Position numbers and translations under genes: made by a program. A DNA stretch of 64,000 bases, from assembly GCA_028712475.1 (NCBI GenBank), contig JAQTQB010000001.1:1-64000 (forward strand), given 5' to 3'. The DNA is from Verrucomicrobiales bacterium. Lineage in GTDB: Bacteria > Verrucomicrobiota > Verrucomicrobiia > Limisphaerales > UBA11358. The notes under the pieces were generated by a model. That model worked only from the letters and a program-made list of their open reading frames with translations. It did not search any database and was not told the DNA's origin. Every line of letters begins with the position of its first letter. The first letter of the stretch is position 1. Of the stretch, positions 5,030-63,876 are shown piece after piece.

Positions 5030-5114
5030 AAAAAGCTTGACGCGAATTACGCGAATCCGTGCGAATGAATTTTGAATTCGTGTTAATTCGTGAAATTCGC
5101 GTCAAAGCTTTTTC
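5030..5114. repeat. palindromic repeat (AATTCGCGTCAA arms)
   Basis: AAAAAGCTTGACGCGAATTA on the left and its near-complement TTCGCGTCAAAGCTTTTT on the right enclose a loop of about 30 bases, between the PHP gene and ftsY. A related palindrome lies at 62961-63030 upstream of radC. Confidence 0.75.
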
Positions 5115-5124
5115 CGCTTCGTGT

Positions 5125-5970
5125 TTATTGGTGTCCATTCGTGGTTCTAGCTTTTTGTTCTGCCGCTTTGTCTTTGAGTTTTTGAACGTGGTCGTAAGGC
5201 AGTTTCACCGTGCCGATGAGCGGCGCTTTTTTGCTGAAGCCGTGGCAGTCGCTGCCGCCGGTGACGAGCAAGCCATGCTTCTCCGCGATCTCCAGATAAC
5301 GCTCGGCCATCGCGGTCGAGTGCTTCGTGTGAAAACACTCTATGCCGTCCAGCCCGGCATCCACCAGGTCGGGGATGATTTCGTCCGTGCGGTTCAAGCC
5401 CGGATGCGCCATGACCGCAAGTCCGCCCGCCTGATGAATCAATTCCACGCCTTCGAGCGCGGACATCTTGGTCTTGGGCACCCACGCGGGCCGGCCCTTT
5501 TTAAGATAACGCTCAAAGGCTTCATCGAGATTGCCGATGAGCTTTTCCTTCACCAGCGCGCGCGCCACATGCGGACGTCCGGGCGACTTGCAGTTGGCGA
5601 GCGCAAAAACCGTTTCGGCCTTGAGCGGAATGCCCAGCCTGTTCAACGCGGCCACCATTTCGCGGATGCGGTTCTGGCGGACGGATTGAAACTCCGCGAT
5701 GCGCGTGAGCAGCACCTGGTTCTGCGTGTCCACGAAATAGGCCAGAATGTGAACTTCAGTGTCATCATGTTCCGCCGTGAGTTCGGTGCCGGAAATAAAT
5801 TCCATGTCCGCCGCCGCACAGGCCGCTGCGGCGCGTTCGCAACCTTCGACCGTGTCATGATCCGTCAACGCGATGGCGGCAAAACCCAGCTTGCTCGCGC
5901 GCTCCACCAGTTCTTCCGGCGTGAACGTGCCGTCGGAAAAAAAAGTGTGCAGATGGAGGTCGGCGAACAT
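5125..5970 (-). CDS. PHP-domain phosphoesterase (TrpH/RnmAM-like)
   Basis: Predicted metal-dependent phosphatase of the PHP family, related to E. coli TrpH/YciV, which hydrolyses 3',5'-nucleoside bisphosphates and trims RNA 5' ends. Motifs are DLHLHTFFSDG at the start, ALTDHDTVEG near residue 40, a conserved E in GTELTAEH, AVMAHPG in the middle and GGSDCHGF at the end; together they supply the trinuclear metal site. The ATG at 5970 is chosen because the first PHP motif begins three residues later; an upstream in-frame ATG would add only repeat-derived residues. The repeat cassette holding a four-helix-bundle gene begins five bases upstream of this start. Confidence 0.88.
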   Translation of the reverse strand: MFADLHLHTFFSDGTFTPEELVERASKLGFAAIALTDHDTVEGCERAAAACAAADMEFISGTELTAEHDDTEVHILAYFVDTQNQVLLTRIAEFQSVRQNRIREMVAALNRLGIPLKAETVFALANCKSPGRPHVARALVKEKLIGNLDEAFERYLKKGRPAWVPKTKMSALEGVELIHQAGGLAVMAHPGLNRTDEIIPDLVDAGLDGIECFHTKHSTAMAERYLEIAEKHGLLVTGGSDCHGFSKKAPLIGTVKLPYDHVQKLKDKAAEQKARTTNGHQ

Positions 5971-5974
5971 AGTT

Positions 5975-6455
5975 AGTCCAAAGTCCAAAGTCTCATGTCC
6001 AAAGTTGTTGTTGTGCGGACGCTCATGCTTTGAATTTGCTGCCTTTCAGTTCGGAGCGGCGCAGATACGTCATGAAGCCGGAAATCAGGCGGCTGACTTC
6101 GACGCAGCGATCGCAGATGACCTTGAACTGTTCAGACGTCAGATAATTTTCATCAAGCGCAGCGTAAAGCTGCGCCCGCACCTCGCCGCAAGAACCTTTG
6201 GCAATGGATAGAAACTGTAGAAATTCTTTGTCGCCACCACGCTCAAATCCTTCCGCGATATTCGACATGATCGAAATGGAAGCGCTGCGAATCTGGTCAC
6301 GCAGGCCAAAATCTTTTGCAAAAGCACTGTTCCTTGAGGCCCCATAGACAAGCCGGTTCAACTCGCGGGCTTTTTGCCAGCTTATCAAATTTTCAAATCG
6401 CTCAATCTTGGCCATGACTTCGGAGACTTTGGGTTTTGGACTTTAGCCTTTGGAC
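5975..6455 (-). mobile_element. putative palindrome-bounded cassette carrying a four-helix-bundle gene
   Basis: AGTCCAAAGTCCAAAGTCTC at 5975 and GACTTTGGGTTTTGGACTTT at 6425 followed by GCCTTTGGACT are inverted copies of one phrase, with nine bases (AGTCCAAAG) perfect at both outer ends. The only gene between them is the four-helix-bundle gene at 6023-6415. The outer right end supplies the TAG stop of nusB. A second such gene in this window is also enclosed by inverted arms, of a different repeat family, which is why a mobile cassette is proposed. Mobility is inferred. Confidence 0.5.
6023..6415 (-). CDS. four-helix-bundle protein (23S rRNA intervening-sequence/S23 family)
   Basis: Small helical protein of 130 residues of the IVP/S23 four-helix-bundle family. 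Diagnostic stretches are FENLISWQKARELNRLVY at the start, LRDQIRSASISIMSNIAEGF in the middle (the family hallmark R-A..SI..NIAEG), EFLQFLSIAKGSCGEVRAQL and the C-terminal helix. Family members were first seen inside intervening sequences of 23S rRNA genes, and a relative (Avd) works in diversity-generating retroelements; the biochemical role of stand-alone copies is unknown. No rRNA gene or reverse transcriptase is nearby. It is transcribed in the same direction as nusB and the PHP gene. Confidence 0.88.
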   Translation of the reverse strand: MAKIERFENLISWQKARELNRLVYGASRNSAFAKDFGLRDQIRSASISIMSNIAEGFERGGDKEFLQFLSIAKGSCGEVRAQLYAALDENYLTSEQFKVICDRCVEVSRLISGFMTYLRRSELKGSKFKA

Positions 6456-6955
6456 TATTTAATTATCCGCGCCGGCCGCATGAGTTCACCCCGGATCTTG
6501 TCGAGGATGCCGTTCACGAATTTACCGCTGTCCTGCGTGGAGAATTTCTTCGCGATGTCCACCGCCTCGTTGATGCTGACCACGGGCGGGATGTCTTCGC
6601 GATACAGCATTTCGTAGATCGCGAGCCGCATGATGTTGCGGTCCACGGCGGCGATGCGGTGGAAATCCCAGTTCTTCGCGTGGCTTTTGATCTTTTCGTC
6701 AATCGCGTCACGATGTTCCAGCACGCCGCGAATCAGCGGTTCCGCGAAGAGGCGCGTCTCGGCCTCCTCGACCGTCGGCGGCGGCAGTTCAACCGGCTGG
6801 CCCCAGTTGGCCGGGCCTTTTTCCTCCTCAATGGCGGCGGCGCGCTGGGAACTCCAGAACGTCGCCAGCTCGAGTTCGAGATTTTCCGGCGGGTTCAGGT
6901 CGTGCTGAAACAGAAATTGAACTGCGCGTTCGCGCGCTTCGCGTCGTTTGCCCAT
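6455..6955 (-). CDS. nusB: transcription antitermination factor NusB
   Basis: RNA-binding all-helical protein that, with NusE (S10), loads on boxA of rRNA operons to prevent premature termination. Signature segments are RREARERAVQFLFQHDLNP at the N-terminus, then VLEHRDAIDEKIKSHAKNW, the conserved AVDRNIMRLAIYEMLYRED, PPVVSINEAVDIAKKF and the closing GKFVNGILDKI. Length (166 residues) is slightly above the usual 140-150 because of an acidic proline-rich insert around residues 40-60. Its TAG stop overlaps the end of the four-helix-bundle cassette, so the last codons before it abut repeat DNA. Confidence 0.95.
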   Translation of the reverse strand: MGKRREARERAVQFLFQHDLNPPENLELELATFWSSQRAAAIEEEKGPANWGQPVELPPPTVEEAETRLFAEPLIRGVLEHRDAIDEKIKSHAKNWDFHRIAAVDRNIMRLAIYEMLYREDIPPVVSINEAVDIAKKFSTQDSGKFVNGILDKIRGELMRPARIIK

Positions 6956-10540: not shown

Positions 10541-10655
10541 AAGGATTTTATTTGTCGAAATTCTTGATGACACGAAATTCTAGTTTTCAAAAAAGTATTT
10601 AGCGAACATTTATTTATTTTTCATCCGTGTCCATCTGTGTTCATCTGTGGTGGAA

Positions 10656-15283: not shown

Positions 15284-18200
15284 TCACGGCTCAATCGGCA
15301 AATTTTTCATGCTGTTAAGCGCCTCTTCCATCGTCCCGGCAAGCCCGGTGCCAGAGACGTAGTTGGTCAGATCAATCTCATTTGGAAGCATCCGAATTGG
15401 TGGCGACTTGAGTGGTTCGAGGAAGATGCGCAATTCCACCCCGGATTGGCCACCGTTATTATCGCCTTCAGATCCGTCAAACTCAACCAGACGAACCACG
15501 CGCTGATGACCCGTGCGGACGCTCTGTGGAAATTTGGTCTCGACCCGGTGAAACGGCGGCATCGCAATCCAGCGACTGCCGGTGGAGCCAGTGCCAAGAT
15601 TCACATTCCACCGAACGGCATTGGTCACACCAGCGGATTCTGAATAGCCCCATCCGGCCAATGCCTGACGACGTCCGGCTTCGGGCATCTTGAGAAAGCT
15701 AGATTCAGAAAAAACTCGGTAACACGATAGACAGCAAAACGGAAGATCAATGCCTCCGGCTTTGCCGACCTTGAAATATGTGCTGAAGCCGGGGTCAACT
15801 GTGGGCACTCCGTTAGTCCAGCGAACAAACAAGAGGCTCGCCAAGTGGTCAGGAGGGATAAAGCACTTGAATCCCCAATCAAATTCGCCAGGTTCAGGGT
15901 GAGCGACATCAAACTGCACGGCTTCGAGAACAAGTCGGCTGTCGTCCGTCGAACCGGAAACGGCATCGGCTGATGTTTGCACCAGCTTGTAGCGGAGCTT
16001 CACGCCGCGCGGGTTCTCGGTGAAGCCGGTGATTTGCAGAATGCCCATGCCGCCTTCGCGGGTTTTGAAAAACCACAACGCGGATTGTTTTAGCGTCAGC
16101 AAATTCACCAACGGGCCGCCAGGACTGCTTGAATCCATTTGCATCGCGGAGTGGATGATTCCGCCCGGCTGTGGCGCTTTCGGCCACGTCTGATGCAGAT
16201 GTTCGGCCTCACGCGCTTTTCGTCCCCACTCGATCACCGCCACGTCATTCTGAACTTGTGCCGGGGTCAAGTCATCCCAGCTTTCCCAGTTCGTCGAATT
16301 GTTTCCGTGCGCGAAAGGGAATGCACCGTCAAAACCAATCACCTTGCCGTCGCCTGCGAACATCAAGTCCGCGCCACTTTCACGCAGCCATTGGATGTAG
16401 CGGAATGAACGTGAATCTTCAGGAATGTCCAGTGCTTGCCAATTCCGTTCGTCTTCACCCAGCGGCTCGGTAATGCTGGCTGGCGGAGTCAACAATTCGC
16501 CCGTGTCCAGATTCAGAAACAAGTTCGTTCCCATTTTCCGCTCTTGGAGCACCCGCTCTACCACCGGGCCGAAGGTGGGGATTTTGGCTTTCTTTTGCGC
16601 CGCCAGCCGGGCCGTCTGTTCTTTCGTCCGGGCGGCGGTTTCCTTCAAACTTTGCGTCAGTTCCGCCGTGCCGCTGAAGTGCGTGAACAATTTGTGCTGA
16701 CCGAATATCAGCAGGATTCCTATGCCGACAAAAATCAACACCGGCCAGAGATTTTGCCGTGAGAAGGAAAACAACCTTATCCGGTCGGCAGCATAGCCGC
16801 GTTCCTTGGCCCAGACGGTCGAGCAAAGAAAGCGCCGTTGCATCCGCAACATCGGCGGCAGACTGGCGAGAAAAAGCACGGCAATGAGCGAACCCACAAT
16901 CCAATTTCCGGGAGCGGAAGATGATTTGATGAGCAGGTAGTTTCCAACGGTCATCAGCATCATCCAGAAGCCCATCATTATCCCATAGAGAATGAACTCG
17001 CTGCGTTCCCCCTTGGTCATGTGCGCGGCAATCTCCCGCACTCCCGGCGATGCCAGCGGAGAAACAAACCATGAACATTTGCCAGTAGGAGACGACGTGA
17101 GGAGACTCTGAACTTTGTTTTCTTTGGCGTTGGGATTTTCAGTTTGAGACTCATCACCTCGTCTCCTACTGGACAAAACAGGCTCAGTCTCCCTTTCTTT
17201 GCGGACGCGGAAAAAATATTCAACTAAAACAATCAGGCAAAGCACGGGGAAAACTGATAAACAGAACTTCCATGCCACACTGCCTTTCTCATAGAAAACC
17301 AGCGAAAACACCATGGCGATAACCCAAAGTCGCCAACTCGTATCAATGATTCGGCTGAAACGTGTGGTCGGCAACGGCGTGTCAAATGGAACCAATTGAC
17401 GAAACCAGCCTTTCGGCTCTTTGGATTCAACTTTCCGCTTTCCGCTTTCCGCTTTTTCAGTTTGAGACTCGTCACCTTGTCTCCTACTGGAATCGGCAGG
17501 CGGACCGCCCGCGCCACCTTTGCTCACCGCGCGCCAGACGTTCAGCAAGAGAATTGATCCGATTCCTAAAACGATGGATAACTTCCATGTCCACGCAGCT
17601 TGAAATGCGGAACTGCGCCACACTCCAAGAAAAATGATGAGAAATGCAGTCAAAACAAGCCCTATTACTACACAGCGTATAAACCGCGGCTTGGTTTTAA
17701 TTGCATCAAGCGGCGCAAGGTTTTCAATTGGAGTTTTCCTCCACATTTGAACCAAGGCTGCTGTCACCAAAGTCGCAGCACCGACCGTGCTATCAATCAA
17801 ATTATGAAATGGAACCCAGCGACCGAACGTAATAAACGACCCCAGTAACATTGCGCCGTAAATAACGACCCAAATCTGTATGACACCGGTCCAATTGATT
17901 ACCCGTTTTCCATCGGAAACTCCGACAAGTATAATTCGACCAAACCGACCTTTGGGTGCTGAAGCATTGGCATTCTTTTGCCTTTCGCTTTCAGAATGAG
18001 ACTCGTCACCTCGTCTCCTACTGGAATCGGGCGTGGCCACAATCGTTTCCACCATCGTCTTCACTTCGCTGACTTGCTGGTAGCGGAGTTCGGGTTTCTT
18101 CTCCAACGCACGCAAAACAATTTCATCGAGCCGCACGTCAATTTGAACTTTTGTGGAGGGCGGCACGATGATTTTGCCGGGCAGTTCGCCGGTGAGCATC

Positions 18201-19280: not shown

Positions 19281-20177
19281 TCACCGCAGCCGGAACCCGC
19301 CTTGAAAAATCACTTCCGCCGCCACGACGACGAGGAACACGGCACCAACGAGCGCGTTCAGCCGGAAGAAGGCGAGGTTGATCCAGTTCAAGCTGCGGCG
19401 GCGCGCGATCCAGTGTTCCATCACCAGACAGCCGACGATGATTGCCCAGCCGATGAGATACGCGATGCGGAACTGGCAGAGCATTCCGAACGCGAACAGC
19501 AAGCCGCACATGACCATGTGCGCGAGGAACGCCGCGCCCAGCGCGTTCTGCGGCCCCCACGCCACGACGAGCGAGCGCAGCCCTTGCGACTTGTCGAACT
19601 CGTAATCTTGCAGCGCGTAAATGATGTCGAAGCCCACGAGCCATAGGACGACGGCGAGCGCGAGCGTGGTCATTTGCAGAATTTCCCAGCCGGAAACATC
19701 CGCGCCCTTCACCGCCAGCCATGCGCCGACCGGCGCGAGCGCGAGCGCAACGCCGAGAAAAACGTGCGTGTAATCCGTGAATCGTTTCGTGAGCGAATAA
19801 AAACAAACCATCACCAGCGCGACGGGTGAAAGATAAAAGCAGAGCGGATTCAAAAAATAACTGGCAGCAATCAATCCTGCCGCCGACAAAGCGCAAAGTG
19901 CAATTGCGTTGAACAAAGAAATTGTTCCGGCTGGCAAATGTCGGCTGGCCGTGCGTGGATTCAGCGCGTCGAACTTGCGGTCAACGATGCGGTTGAAAGC
20001 CATCGCGCACGTCCGCGCGCAGACCATCGCCGCGAGGATCAGTCCAAACGTCCGCCAGCCCGGCCAGCCGCGATTGTCACGCGCGGCCACAAGCATCGCC
20101 GCCAGCGCGAACGGCAGCGCGAAGACCGTGTGCGAGAAGCGCACGAACGAAGCGAATTTTTTAATTTGAGAAAACAT
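19281..20177 (-). CDS. UbiA-family prenyltransferase (menaquinone, MqnP-like)
   Basis: Integral membrane aromatic prenyltransferase of 298 residues with about eight helices. The first Asp-rich motif is CARTCAMAFNRIVDRKFDA (N-x-x-x-D-x-x-x-D), followed by NPRTASRHLP; the second is DIIYALQDYEFDKSQGL. These bind the Mg-prenyl diphosphate. Together with mqnA, mqnE and ubiX in the same window, prenylation of the naphthoate intermediate of the futalosine pathway is the likely role. The ATG at 20177 (FSQIKKFASFVRFSHTVFAL) is preferred; an ATG seven codons upstream would add residues from a repeat arm. Confidence 0.9.
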   Translation of the reverse strand: MFSQIKKFASFVRFSHTVFALPFALAAMLVAARDNRGWPGWRTFGLILAAMVCARTCAMAFNRIVDRKFDALNPRTASRHLPAGTISLFNAIALCALSAAGLIAASYFLNPLCFYLSPVALVMVCFYSLTKRFTDYTHVFLGVALALAPVGAWLAVKGADVSGWEILQMTTLALAVVLWLVGFDIIYALQDYEFDKSQGLRSLVVAWGPQNALGAAFLAHMVMCGLLFAFGMLCQFRIAYLIGWAIIVGCLVMEHWIARRRSLNWINLAFFRLNALVGAVFLVVVAAEVIFQGGFRLR

Positions 20178-20715
20178 CGAACATCCAACATCGAACACTC
20201 AACATCCAATGGTTAGCCGGCTTCGCCGGAAGGGCAACGCGGTGCGGTGGCGGGAGTGCGTTTTTCCACCAGGGCATTTTTCTTCGCGGTCTGGACGCTG
20301 GCAAAGAAAATGCGGATTAACTCTTCCGACTCACCCAATATAAAAATCAGGGAAACGTTTTCGTTCACCCATCCTTTATGCTTGATGAGCCGTGCCCAGC
20401 GGCGGGTTTCGCGCAATTCCTTGAGACAAATCTTGAGTTTGTGGATGAAATCATCGCGTGATTCGGCATCTTCCGCTTCACCATGATTTGGAAAAGGAGA
20501 GGTGCCGGAACGCAGAATCTGCCCGGAGACGTGGTTTCCTGCGCGTGAATTTGGCAGATTTTCCGAAAGGTCAATCACCGCCGAGGCAAATTCCAGCAAC
20601 CGTTCTTCGAGATCAAACTTGCGATTGTTTTTTGAGCCATCATTAAACTCCAAAACGCCCGATGCCGAACCCTTGGGCATTGGATGTTGGATGTTGGATG
20701 TTGGATGTTTCTTCA
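20171..20715 (-). mobile_element. second palindrome-bounded cassette with a four-helix-bundle gene
   Basis: AAAACATCGAACATCCAACA ... CATCCAATGG at 20171-20212 and CATTGGATGTTGGATGTTGG ... ATGTTTC at 20679-20712 are inverted copies of the CATCCAACAT repeat. The only gene between the arms is the second four-helix-bundle gene. The cassette sits between ubiX and ubiA, starting directly after the ubiX stop and overlapping the ubiA start by a few bases. Its arrangement copies that of 5975-6455 with another repeat family. Mobility is inferred. Confidence 0.5.
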
Positions 20716-39585: not shown

Positions 39586-39685
39586 AAACATCCAACAACC
39601 AACATCCAACACCGAACATCCAATGGGTTCCGTGCGCCGCTGCGCTGGATGTTGGATGTTCGATGTTGGATGTTCGATGTTCATT
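39586..39685. repeat. CATCCAACAT-type palindrome within the aldehyde oxidoreductase operon
   Basis: GAAACATCCAACAACCAACA on the left and TTGGATGTTCGATGTTGGAT on the right surround a GTTCCGTGCGCCGCTGCGC loop. It fills the 121-base gap between the Mo and FAD subunit genes, so the two are probably one transcript with a hairpin between them. Confidence 0.88.
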
Positions 39686-58990: not shown

Positions 58991-61900
58991 TCAGCGCAAT
59001 CCACGCTCTCCGTCCGCTGCGCCGATAAAAAGTGCAGCCAGCAATTCGTGACCGGCTTGGAATAAATCCTCCCCAGCGCGCTGGCATAAAGTTTTAATTG
59101 TGGCGAATAGAGTTTTATTTTCGCCGGTAAATCGCCCGCGCCGGCTTCGTCCGTCTTGAAATCCACCAGCCAGATTTCCCGTGGCAGCAGCACGACCAGA
59201 TCCGCCACGCCCTGCACGACGACAAATTCATTTGAGGCAAGGATGCCGTGCTGCGGCGTCCCGTCGTCGCAGCGCGACGACCCCACCAACTTGTCCAATT
59301 CGTTCAGTCTAAACTTCGCAGTGAACGCCAGCTCGCGCTTCACGCTCGTAGCCTGCTGCCGGATTTTTTGACCGGCATCAGAATTCCAAAACGCAGCGAC
59401 CGCCTTCAAATTCAAGGCTCCACGCTCGTCCGCCGACAAAACCCTCTGCCGTTCCAGCCGCAGAGCCTCGGCTTCGAGCGCGGTCACTCCGCCGGTTTTT
59501 TCAAGCGAAACGTGCTGGAGAAACTTGTGGTGCGCCGTGCCAGCATCCGCCGCATTCAATTTCGGATTTCGGATTTCGGATTTCGGATTTTGGCCCGGTG
59601 GGGCGGGCACCCTCGCGAGCCGTCTTCCTGAAAATTGAAAATTGAAAACTGGCTCTGCCTCGTCATCCAGCTCATCTGATGCCTGCCGCCGCAAGGCCGT
59701 CACCGAAGATTTGGCGGCGCGTTCCGTCGCTGCTTGTTGTGGATATACCCAACCCAAAACCGCGCGCAGTTTTTTCACAGTCGCCTCGTCGAGCGCCGTT
59801 GTGTCCCCGTAGCAGCCGACGTGAGGAGGCTCTGGCTTTTCTTTTGTTTGAGCCTCGTCACCTCGGCTGCTACGAACTGGATCGCCGCCAAGTTCCACGT
59901 CCTCCACAATCCGCCAGCGCAACAACGGCGTTTCACCTTCCTTCTCATTTTGAATTTTGAATTTTGAATTTTGAACCTGCCGTTGCGCGAACCAAATTCC
60001 CAGCCAGTCCGCGTAACTTTTCGCCGCCAGAATTTTTTGTTCCGTGACCGTGCCGGTTTCCTGCCATTGCTCCGTCCATTTTTTCTCCGAGACGCTGCCC
60101 GTCAAAATCAGCGTGTCGCGCGCTCGCGTCATCGCGACGTAAAGCAGCCGCAATTCTTCGCCCGCCTGCTCGCGGCGCTGATGCCGCTGCGCGAGCCAGT
60201 GCGGCAGGCTCGGATAACGCCGCCCGGTGTGCGGCGGCTTCACCTTGGGGCAAAGCCCGAATTCCTCGTCAAAAATGATTTCGCCGCGCAGGTCTTGAGT
60301 GTTGAACGGCTTCGCCAGGTCGGCGATGGCCACGACGGGAAATTCCAGGCCCTTGCTCTGGTGGATGCTCATCAGGCGCACGGCATTTTCATCCGGCGTT
60401 GCCGCGACCTCCGGCTCCGCCTCCGCCTCGCGCTGCGCCTCGATGAATTTCAGAAAGCGGAACAATCCCTGCCGCTGAAACTGGTCAAACTTCTGCGCGA
60501 GATTCAAAAACCTCCCGACGTTCGCGTGCCGCTGCAATCCGCGCGAGCGCGATTTCAGCCAGTCGTCATAATGTGTTTCCGCCAGCACCTGTTCCAGACA
60601 GCGCGACAACGACGCCTGCCGCGCCAGCTTCCGCCAGCGCGCGAACCGCTCAAGAAATTTTGAAACTTTCCCCGCCGCCGCATTTTTAATTTTTAATTTT
60701 TCATTTTGAATTGCATTGAGCGCCGTCCAAAAATGTTCGCGCGACACGGTGAGACGGATGGCCGCCAGTTCATCCAGCGACAAACCGACGAGCGGCGAAC
60801 GCAGCACGGCGATGCACGGGACGTCCTGCAACGGATTGTCGAGCAGTTGCAGCAGGCTCAAGAGGTCGGCAATCTCGCTGCTGTCGTAAAATCCGCCGCG
60901 CGCGATGACCAGCGGCACGCCTGCGTGCTCAAATTCCATCGCATAAATCTCCGACTTGCCCGACATCGCGCGCAGCAGCACCGCCATGTCGCGCCATTCT
61001 ACGGCGCGGAAGATTTTATCTTTATCATCCCAAATCTCATGTTTCTCCGCCCGCAACTCTTTCAACCGCGCTGCGAGTAACCGCGCTTCCTTTTCCGTCT
61101 CGCCCAAGTCCGCCGGCTCATCTGCGCCGGATTCCTCGTCCGGTTCGGAAGATTCGTTACGTCCGGCTTTGAGGCGTAACAGCAGTTCCGTTCGCGGCGA
61201 AGCATCTTTCGCAACGCTGAAACCGGGGCGAGTTTCCGGCGAACCAAATTTCAATTGCGCCTCCTCGTCGTATTCCACGCCGCCAAGCTCCTTGCGCATG
61301 AGCGGCGCGAAAACGGAATTCACGAAATTAAGCAATGATTCGCGGCTCCGGAAGTTTTCGGAAAGCGGAATCACCCGACCGTTTTCGCCGTGCCAGATCT
61401 TCGAGTAATCGCGGAAGATTTTTGGATCAGCGAGCCGGAAACGGTAAATGCTCTGCTTCACGTCACCGACTAGAAACCGGTTGCCCACGGGCGCATTTTT
61501 TCCTTCTCCCTCTCCTCCCAAAAGGAGGAGAGGGTCGGGGTGAGGAGGTAGATTGTTCGCGAGTTCAGCACCCCTCACCCCAGCCCTCTCCCCGCTTGGG
61601 CGGGGCGAGGGAGAAAAGGCATTGCGTGAAAGCGCAGCAATGATCTTGTCCTGCGCGGCGTTGATGTCCTGATATTCGTCCACGAAAACGAAGCTCAATT
61701 TATTCCGCCATGTTTCGGCAGTGGCCGTTGGTTTGTCAGCGGCAAAATCCCAAAGCAATTTCAGGGCGAACTGTTCAAGGTCGTGAAAATCCAGCACGCC
61801 GTCGGCGCGTTTGCGGTCGGAAAATTTTCCGGCGAATTCTTCCGCGAGCCGCAGCAGGGTTTCCATGTGGCCCCGAACCCAGTTCCAGTCTTCCGTGAGC

Positions 61901-62960: not shown

Positions 62961-63030
62961 AGGTGACGCAAATTACGCCAATTAACGCGAATTAAAATTC
63001 CATTCGCGATAATTCGTGAAATTCGTGTCA
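62961..63030. repeat. palindrome with GTGACGCAAATTACG arms
   Basis: GACGCAAATTACGCCAATTA and GATAATTCGTGAAATTCGTG with TC form a loose inverted repeat between the divergent helicase and radC genes, related to 5030-5114. Confidence 0.6.
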
Positions 63031-63797: not shown

Positions 63798-63876
63798 ACC
63801 GCCGATGAACGCCGATGAATACGGATGGCCGAGCAAAATCATTTTCAATCTGTGTGAATCTGTGTGAATCTGTGGC
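63798..63876. repeat. short phrase repeat before lpxA
   Basis: ACCGCCGATGAACGCCGATG, then three tandem units of CTGTGTGAAT at 63850-63876. The same style of phrase occurs at 3970, 10620 and 32040 in other gaps. Confidence 0.7.

Follow-up and report, generated by a model that had tools for sequence, protein, structure and literature searches.

S23/IVP proteins, often annotated as 'four helix bundle' proteins, occur in many bacteria without an assigned function and are known mainly from inserts in rRNA genes. To our knowledge, the S23 four-helix bundle has no known nuclease activity. REPIN–RAYT systems, in which the RAYT protein is a Y1 transposase, combine a single-gene source element that has inverted repeats with many gene-less inverted pairs of that repeat. 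The 23S rRNA intervening sequences (IVSs) with an S23 open reading frame (ORF) are described from Leptospira and Coxiella (Ralph and McClelland 1993, cited in PMC4990558). The Coxiella IVS is given as 428 nt long, with three tandem heptamers (GACAGAT) just upstream of the S23 ORF, and mobility of 23S IVSs was proposed earlier (PMC4990558). 23S_rRNA_IVP genes within cas loci are listed among CRISPR–Cas-associated functions (PMC3936711). Heptamer repeats are described as GGGAATC in Xanthomonas, which has 70–75 inverted pairs of heptamers (PMC4692102), and as TAACTGA in Beggiatoaceae and cyanobacteria (PMC4692102, PMC4679880); the passages of these two papers that were searched make no mention of S23 genes. 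These repeats have no accepted origin. A non-exhaustive search of the open-access literature revealed no work joining S23 genes with heptamer arrays outside rRNA.

The window, which is the whole 64,000-nt stretch of DNA analysed here, contains an S23/IVP gene that lies between nusB and a PHP-domain gene and not inside a 23S rRNA gene. The gene (6023–6415, minus strand) encodes a protein of 130 amino acids with full-length matches to PF05635 (E 6.5e-35; 120 bits, curated cut-off 33.8) and to TIGR02436, 23S_rRNA_IVP (E 4.7e-32; 110 bits, cut-off 24). The protein also matches PDB 2gsc by sequence (E 3e-12). An earlier note on this DNA had described the gene as the only one between two inverted arms, and this description was correct: the arms are 78% complementary, and between them we found the S23 ORF alone, with no Y1 (HUH) transposase and no other transposase. 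The arms are longer than had been proposed, however, at 32 nt each, and they consist of tandem AGTCCAA heptamers rather than one unique palindrome. The arm upstream of the gene (6426–6457, minus strand) is the heptamer array TAGTCCAAAGGCTAAAGTCCAAAACCCAAAGT, as read on the minus strand; the downstream arm (5974–6005, plus strand) is its inverted copy, in which TRF counted 4.4 units of AGTCCAA (TAGTCCAAAGTCCAAAGTCTCATGTCCAAAGT on the plus strand). Allowing up to two mismatches, the two-unit 14-mer AGTCCAAAGTCCAA matched nine times in the window, against 0.38 expected from shuffles. All three genes share the minus strand. Upstream, the insertion is bordered by the host gene nusB (6455–6955; PF01029, E 3e-36, and comparison with empty sites), and its TAG stop codon (6455–6457) falls within the arm, which bears out the claim that the outer arm end provides this stop. 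The host gene downstream, encoding the PHP domain (5125–5970; PF02811), has its true start at the ATG at 5970, as aligned with relatives; the alternative TTG at 5988 would run into the arm.

The analogy with 23S IVSs that the earlier note had drawn fits. The element shares with them the protein family, an ORF inside inverted repeats able to form a stem, a similar size, a sense orientation to the host transcript and, in the case of Coxiella, the heptamers before the S23 ORF. It differs from them in lying at protein-operon junctions instead of rRNA helices, in having locus-specific heptamer arrays as both arms, with several copies per genome, and in that movement between unrelated sites can be seen directly. 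It resembles REPIN–RAYT systems in combining an armed single-gene element with gene-less inverted pairs of the same repeat, but has no Y1 transposase, and its repeats are tandem heptamers that vary by element. It has defined terminal inverted repeats, as classical IS elements and MITEs do, yet no transposase inside. Intergenic 7-nt tandem arrays are shared with Xanthomonas, Beggiatoaceae and cyanobacteria, and inverted pairs, as far as the heptamers are described, with Xanthomonas. Xcc has an S23 protein, XCC0516, and the heptamers of these bacteria may be linked to S23 elements. Considering the evidence below, we think it likely that the window feature represents a copy of a mobile element that is widespread and composed of a heptamer array, an S23/IVP gene and an inverted array. 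Such a heptamer-armed S23 element looks largely undescribed.

To measure how general the arms are, we compared, at each locus, the 300 nt on either side of the IVP domain and took the highest-scoring inverted match without gaps, with a threshold of at least 13. Inverted arms were found at 128 of 157 IVP loci (81.5%) in more than 15 phyla: 31/41 (76%) in this and related genomes, 62/76 (82%) across many bacterial phyla and 35/40 (87.5%) in 40 further loci from relatives. Within the genome of the window, 11 of the 14 IVP loci reached this score, compared with 11 of 339 ordinary genes (3.2%) of contig C9 (Fisher p ~1e-12), so that the enrichment anticipated in the earlier note was confirmed in its own genome as well as in the other samples. 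The window locus scored 15.0, a value attained by 1.8% of the same 339 genes. When flanks were swapped between loci, 2.5–3.6% reached the threshold, which indicates that each arm matches its partner at the same locus and not arms from elsewhere. Inverted matches were also far commoner than direct ones (12–27% at the same threshold). Approximately 18% of IVP loci had no recognizable arms. The whole arm–gene–arm package measured about 430–570 bp.

The arms are built from a 7-nt, at times 8-nt, unit that is specific to each locus. Across the 76 loci from many phyla, arm identity at lag 7 was 0.52 against a background of 0.25, with an echo at lag 14; about four fifths of the arms repeated every 7 nt and one fifth every 8 nt. 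Rotation alignment of 72 upstream-arm units gave the consensus YNNRAGT with an RGT core (3.26 bits in total, null maximum 2.51). The GT is conserved at approximately 80–84%, whereas the remaining positions differ between elements and repeat within one. The orientation of the unit relative to the gene was the same in 64 of 72 cases, and array length had a mode of five units on both sides of the gene.

IVP genes were co-directional with both neighbours at 83 loci and opposed to both at 4, so the gene is probably expressed from host operons. The dN/dS of IVP genes was approximately 0.08–0.2 where computable (approximately 0.15 for the window gene and its orthologue in the relative G004), and this purifying selection shows that the protein matters. 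The sites occupied are operon junctions: on the mobile reading, the element goes in close to the very point where one co-transcribed gene stops and the next starts, in almost every case along the direction of transcription, so that S23 is made from the host operon while the host genes stay intact. This orientation could point either to a process at the RNA level or to selection on expression. It is thus among the points in favour of a possible, if somewhat unlikely, alternative, in which these elements are generalized 23S-type IVSs whose spread and tolerance both depend on RNA: the arms would pair in the transcript, RNase III would excise the insert from the polycistronic mRNA and S23 would act on the excised RNA. 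The common protein family, the size and heptamers of the Coxiella IVS, and the pairing of the window arms as RNA at about −34 kcal/mol are consistent with this idea. However, if selection acted on an RNA stem, arm mismatches should favour G–U pairs in the sense transcript, and they showed no such asymmetry (81 vs 95). We therefore rejected selection through sense G–U wobble, and the result is a mild argument for a DNA-level process. Moreover, outside rRNA the function of the host genes requires no cleavage.

The heptamers extend beyond the arms of IVP genes. The window contains a second element of the same class, with an IVP domain at 20315–20596 (minus strand; PF05635, E 2.3e-11, and TIGR02436), an AACATCC-type array at 20173–20206 (plus strand; TRF, inverted partner score 20–24.5) and the inverted arm at 20680–20709 (minus strand; TRF, 4.3 units of TTGGATG on the plus strand). 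It also contains two solo inverted pairs: one at 1338–1420 with the heptamer of the first element (GTCCAAA/TTTGGAC), a 16-nt loop and no IVP gene, and one at 39587–39681 with AACATCC, the unit of the second element, a 22-nt loop and no gene. Period 7 was the commonest tandem-repeat class of C9 (464 kb), where many arrays pair inverted with loops of approximately 17–34 nt and repeat a unit that also occurs in an IVP element of that genome (AACATCC as in the second window element, AGTTTCA as in locus L004 and GGATGAA as in locus L007). Other gene-less arrays are single rather than paired, such as those of AAAGCGG, the arm unit of locus L303. This pattern matched 111 times in the relative G016 and 36 times in its sister G002, with no match for the reversed control, and G002 has these 36 matches yet lacks the L303 copy at that junction. 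Many G016 contigs carry mostly one strand of AAAGCGG, which hints at an orientation bias relative to replication or transcription. The only AAAGCGG site in the genome of the window is a single array (CTTTCCG) at 17431–17455.

These observations raise the alternative that the arrays are the mobile or self-expanding entity and that an IVP gene between two of them only occasionally rides along or benefits. There are far more arrays than IVP genes, as the AAAGCGG counts and the many solo pairs and single arrays of C9 illustrate, and a glycosyltransferase-like gene of C9 (259666–260898) lies between inverted ATTTACG arrays (C9:259519–260929, outside the window), which is the one clear case of non-IVP cargo in 464 kb. 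We nevertheless regard this alternative as unlikely. Arms are specific to IVP genes, given their frequency at other genes of C9, they keep a fixed orientation to the gene, and gene and arms move as one (see below). Arrays are also scarce in IVP-free relatives: away from IVP genes we counted 2 arrays in about 252 kb from four IVP-free relatives, each at least 90% complete, compared with 2.5–25 per 100 kb in IVP-rich relatives, in a comparison that is small and has no phylogenetic correction. A fifth IVP-free genome (57% complete) had 9.8 arrays per 100 kb. If the arm-bounded S23 element is the mobile entity, gene-less arrays would be decayed copies, or would be mobilized in trans, much as RAYTs mobilize REPINs.

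Comparison of occupied and empty sites supports this reading. Empty nusB–PHP sites, for which the earlier note had suggested a search, were found: in most relatives the nusB TGA overlaps the PHP ATG (ATGA), with neither gene nor arms between. The element is present in the window's own genome (G000) and in G004, a remnant is present in G011, and in four more relatives this junction holds different short inserts that lack the gene, several of which are inverted repeat arrays. That note had named nusB–PHP orthologues with the gene but without the arms as evidence against its proposal. The G004 locus goes part of the way, as it keeps the gene although one of its arms has decayed, and residence therefore does not strictly require arms. 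At fabZ–lpxA and metK–ahcY, empty sites occur alongside versions that are full, internally deleted or gene-less, and the internally deleted copies in G015, G022 and G024 keep their arms; the element decays by internal deletion and leaves the arms behind. Two further junctions are empty in relatives, that of locus L015 in G012, where the flanks are 88% identical, and that of L303 in G002. On the species tree the distribution is patchy, with the sisters G016 and G002 being full and empty, respectively, at metK–ahcY. Across filled and empty pairs we found no target-site duplication of constant length; ATG(A) is present on both sides at some junctions and absent at the L303 site.

IVP copies that are 76–85% identical and have the same heptamer occupy unrelated sites in different species. 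Four pairs of loci (L015/L281, L018/L003, L289/L295 and L038/L299) share 68–72% identity at the DNA level across the span between the outer edges of the arms, and no similarity was detected between their flanks, so that homology stops at the arm edges; L015 and L281 belong to different families. Where the sites are demonstrably different, however, same-arm copies reach an identity of about 85% at most. This ceiling, the IVP loci that lack arms, the inconsistent target-site duplication and the fact that the element encodes no catalytic enzyme weigh against the mobile reading, as does the failure to detect RVT_1 in the window's own genome (see below). Together, the empty sites, the arm-retaining deletions and the arm-to-arm homology at unrelated sites identify arm–gene–arm as a unit of movement, with movement seen on an evolutionary timescale only. 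The earlier suggestion that S23 genes travel generally in palindromic elements is thus supported, with locus-specific heptamer arrays in place of simple palindromes. We rejected plasmid copies as evidence of insertion: 24 plasmid records carry IVPs, and those inspected lie in conserved plasmid gene clusters and show no insertion. The phages that we searched gave no IVP match.

Several junctions look like old residences that were kept vertically with many losses, and metK–ahcY and fabZ–lpxA hold related IVPs in several species. This pattern and the ability of the arms to form strong hairpins are what would be expected if the arms were host regulatory hairpins (terminators or mRNA stabilizers) around an ordinary, vertically inherited operon gene. 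The exact empty sites in relatives, the unrelated host operons and the arm-bounded homology of the same element at unrelated sites make this very improbable, and the IVPs at fabZ–lpxA do not form one clade (AU p 0.005). It is scarcely credible that the protein is a DGR accessory protein (Avd, cd16375) working with a reverse transcriptase: Avd and S23 are reported to be homologous in fold and PF05635 picks up Avd (PMC10053308), but neither a reverse transcriptase nor a template or variable repeat is present here, and we rejected the partnership because RVT_1 was not detected in the window's own genome, with its 14 IVP genes, or in the IVP-rich relatives G004, G024, G026 and G030.

How might a mobile S23 element without a transposase act on its arms? 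Solved S23 structures hold five chains, and for XCC0516 an assembly made up of five four-helix bundles has been reported (reference in PMC3936711). Considering that the arrays most often have five units, a pentamer reading five units is a natural idea, and a model in which an S23 homopentamer reads about five RGT-core heptamers is attractive but unproven. Each subunit of such a pentamer would bind one 7-nt RGT-core unit in the arrays of the element that encodes it, and the protein may join the inverted arms or stabilize a hairpin or cruciform, at which host enzymes would copy or move the element. The whole heptamer tracks the protein (r 0.29), whereas its four variable bases do so weakly (Mantel r 0.08), and 7- versus 8-nt spacing follows the protein tree weakly (p 0.04–0.10). 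We therefore rejected co-evolution of heptamer and protein and a spacing set by the protein; the weak tracking of variable bases and spacing speaks against tight matching of protein and array. Our broadest proposal, which we offer tentatively and at less than even confidence, is that these elements form a so far unrecognized, bacteria-wide mobile class in which a non-nuclease pentamer reads the arrays, one RGT unit per subunit, as rapidly evolving, self-matching terminal repeats. This class would spread and seed genomes with the heptamer repeats described from several phyla, and 23S IVSs would be a special case that landed in rRNA.

Joining S23 and the heptamers in one mobile element would explain both the S23 proteins that lack a function and the heptamers that lack an origin. 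It would make the nature of 23S IVSs a testable question, and it predicts a new mode of protein–repeat recognition, a pentamer on about 5 × 7 nt. It would also account simply for the S23 genes found among cas genes and in other operons: the IVPs of cas loci belong to the same family, and they would be one more operon insertion. At locus L006 (G000:C25:67280–70600), an IVP gene is flanked by genes that resemble cas1 and cas2, as read from sequence, with extra short repeat arrays upstream.

Additional arrangements were observed at these junctions and in the window. The release factor–HAD junction carries an IVP element in G002 and an unrelated hydrolase-like gene of approximately 0.9 kb in G016 (L324) and G007 (L326), and such junctions therefore accept other inserts too. 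At four metK–ahcY loci (L204, L211, L212 and L217), a complete short hairpin, composed of an array and an inverted array, precedes the IVP gene, and a third array follows it. Within approximately 1.2 kb of the window (59559–60712), arrays of several A+T-rich heptamers (ATTTCGG, TGAAAAT, ATTTTGA and ATTTTTA) are clustered. Repeats with a period of approximately 9–10, such as AATTCGTGTT and CATCTGTGTC, differ from the heptamers in unit length and are found in the window at 5064–5110, 10622–10649, 62966–63027 and 63847–63874, and also at locus L056. A similar type forms an inverted pair inside the decayed nusB–PHP element of G011.
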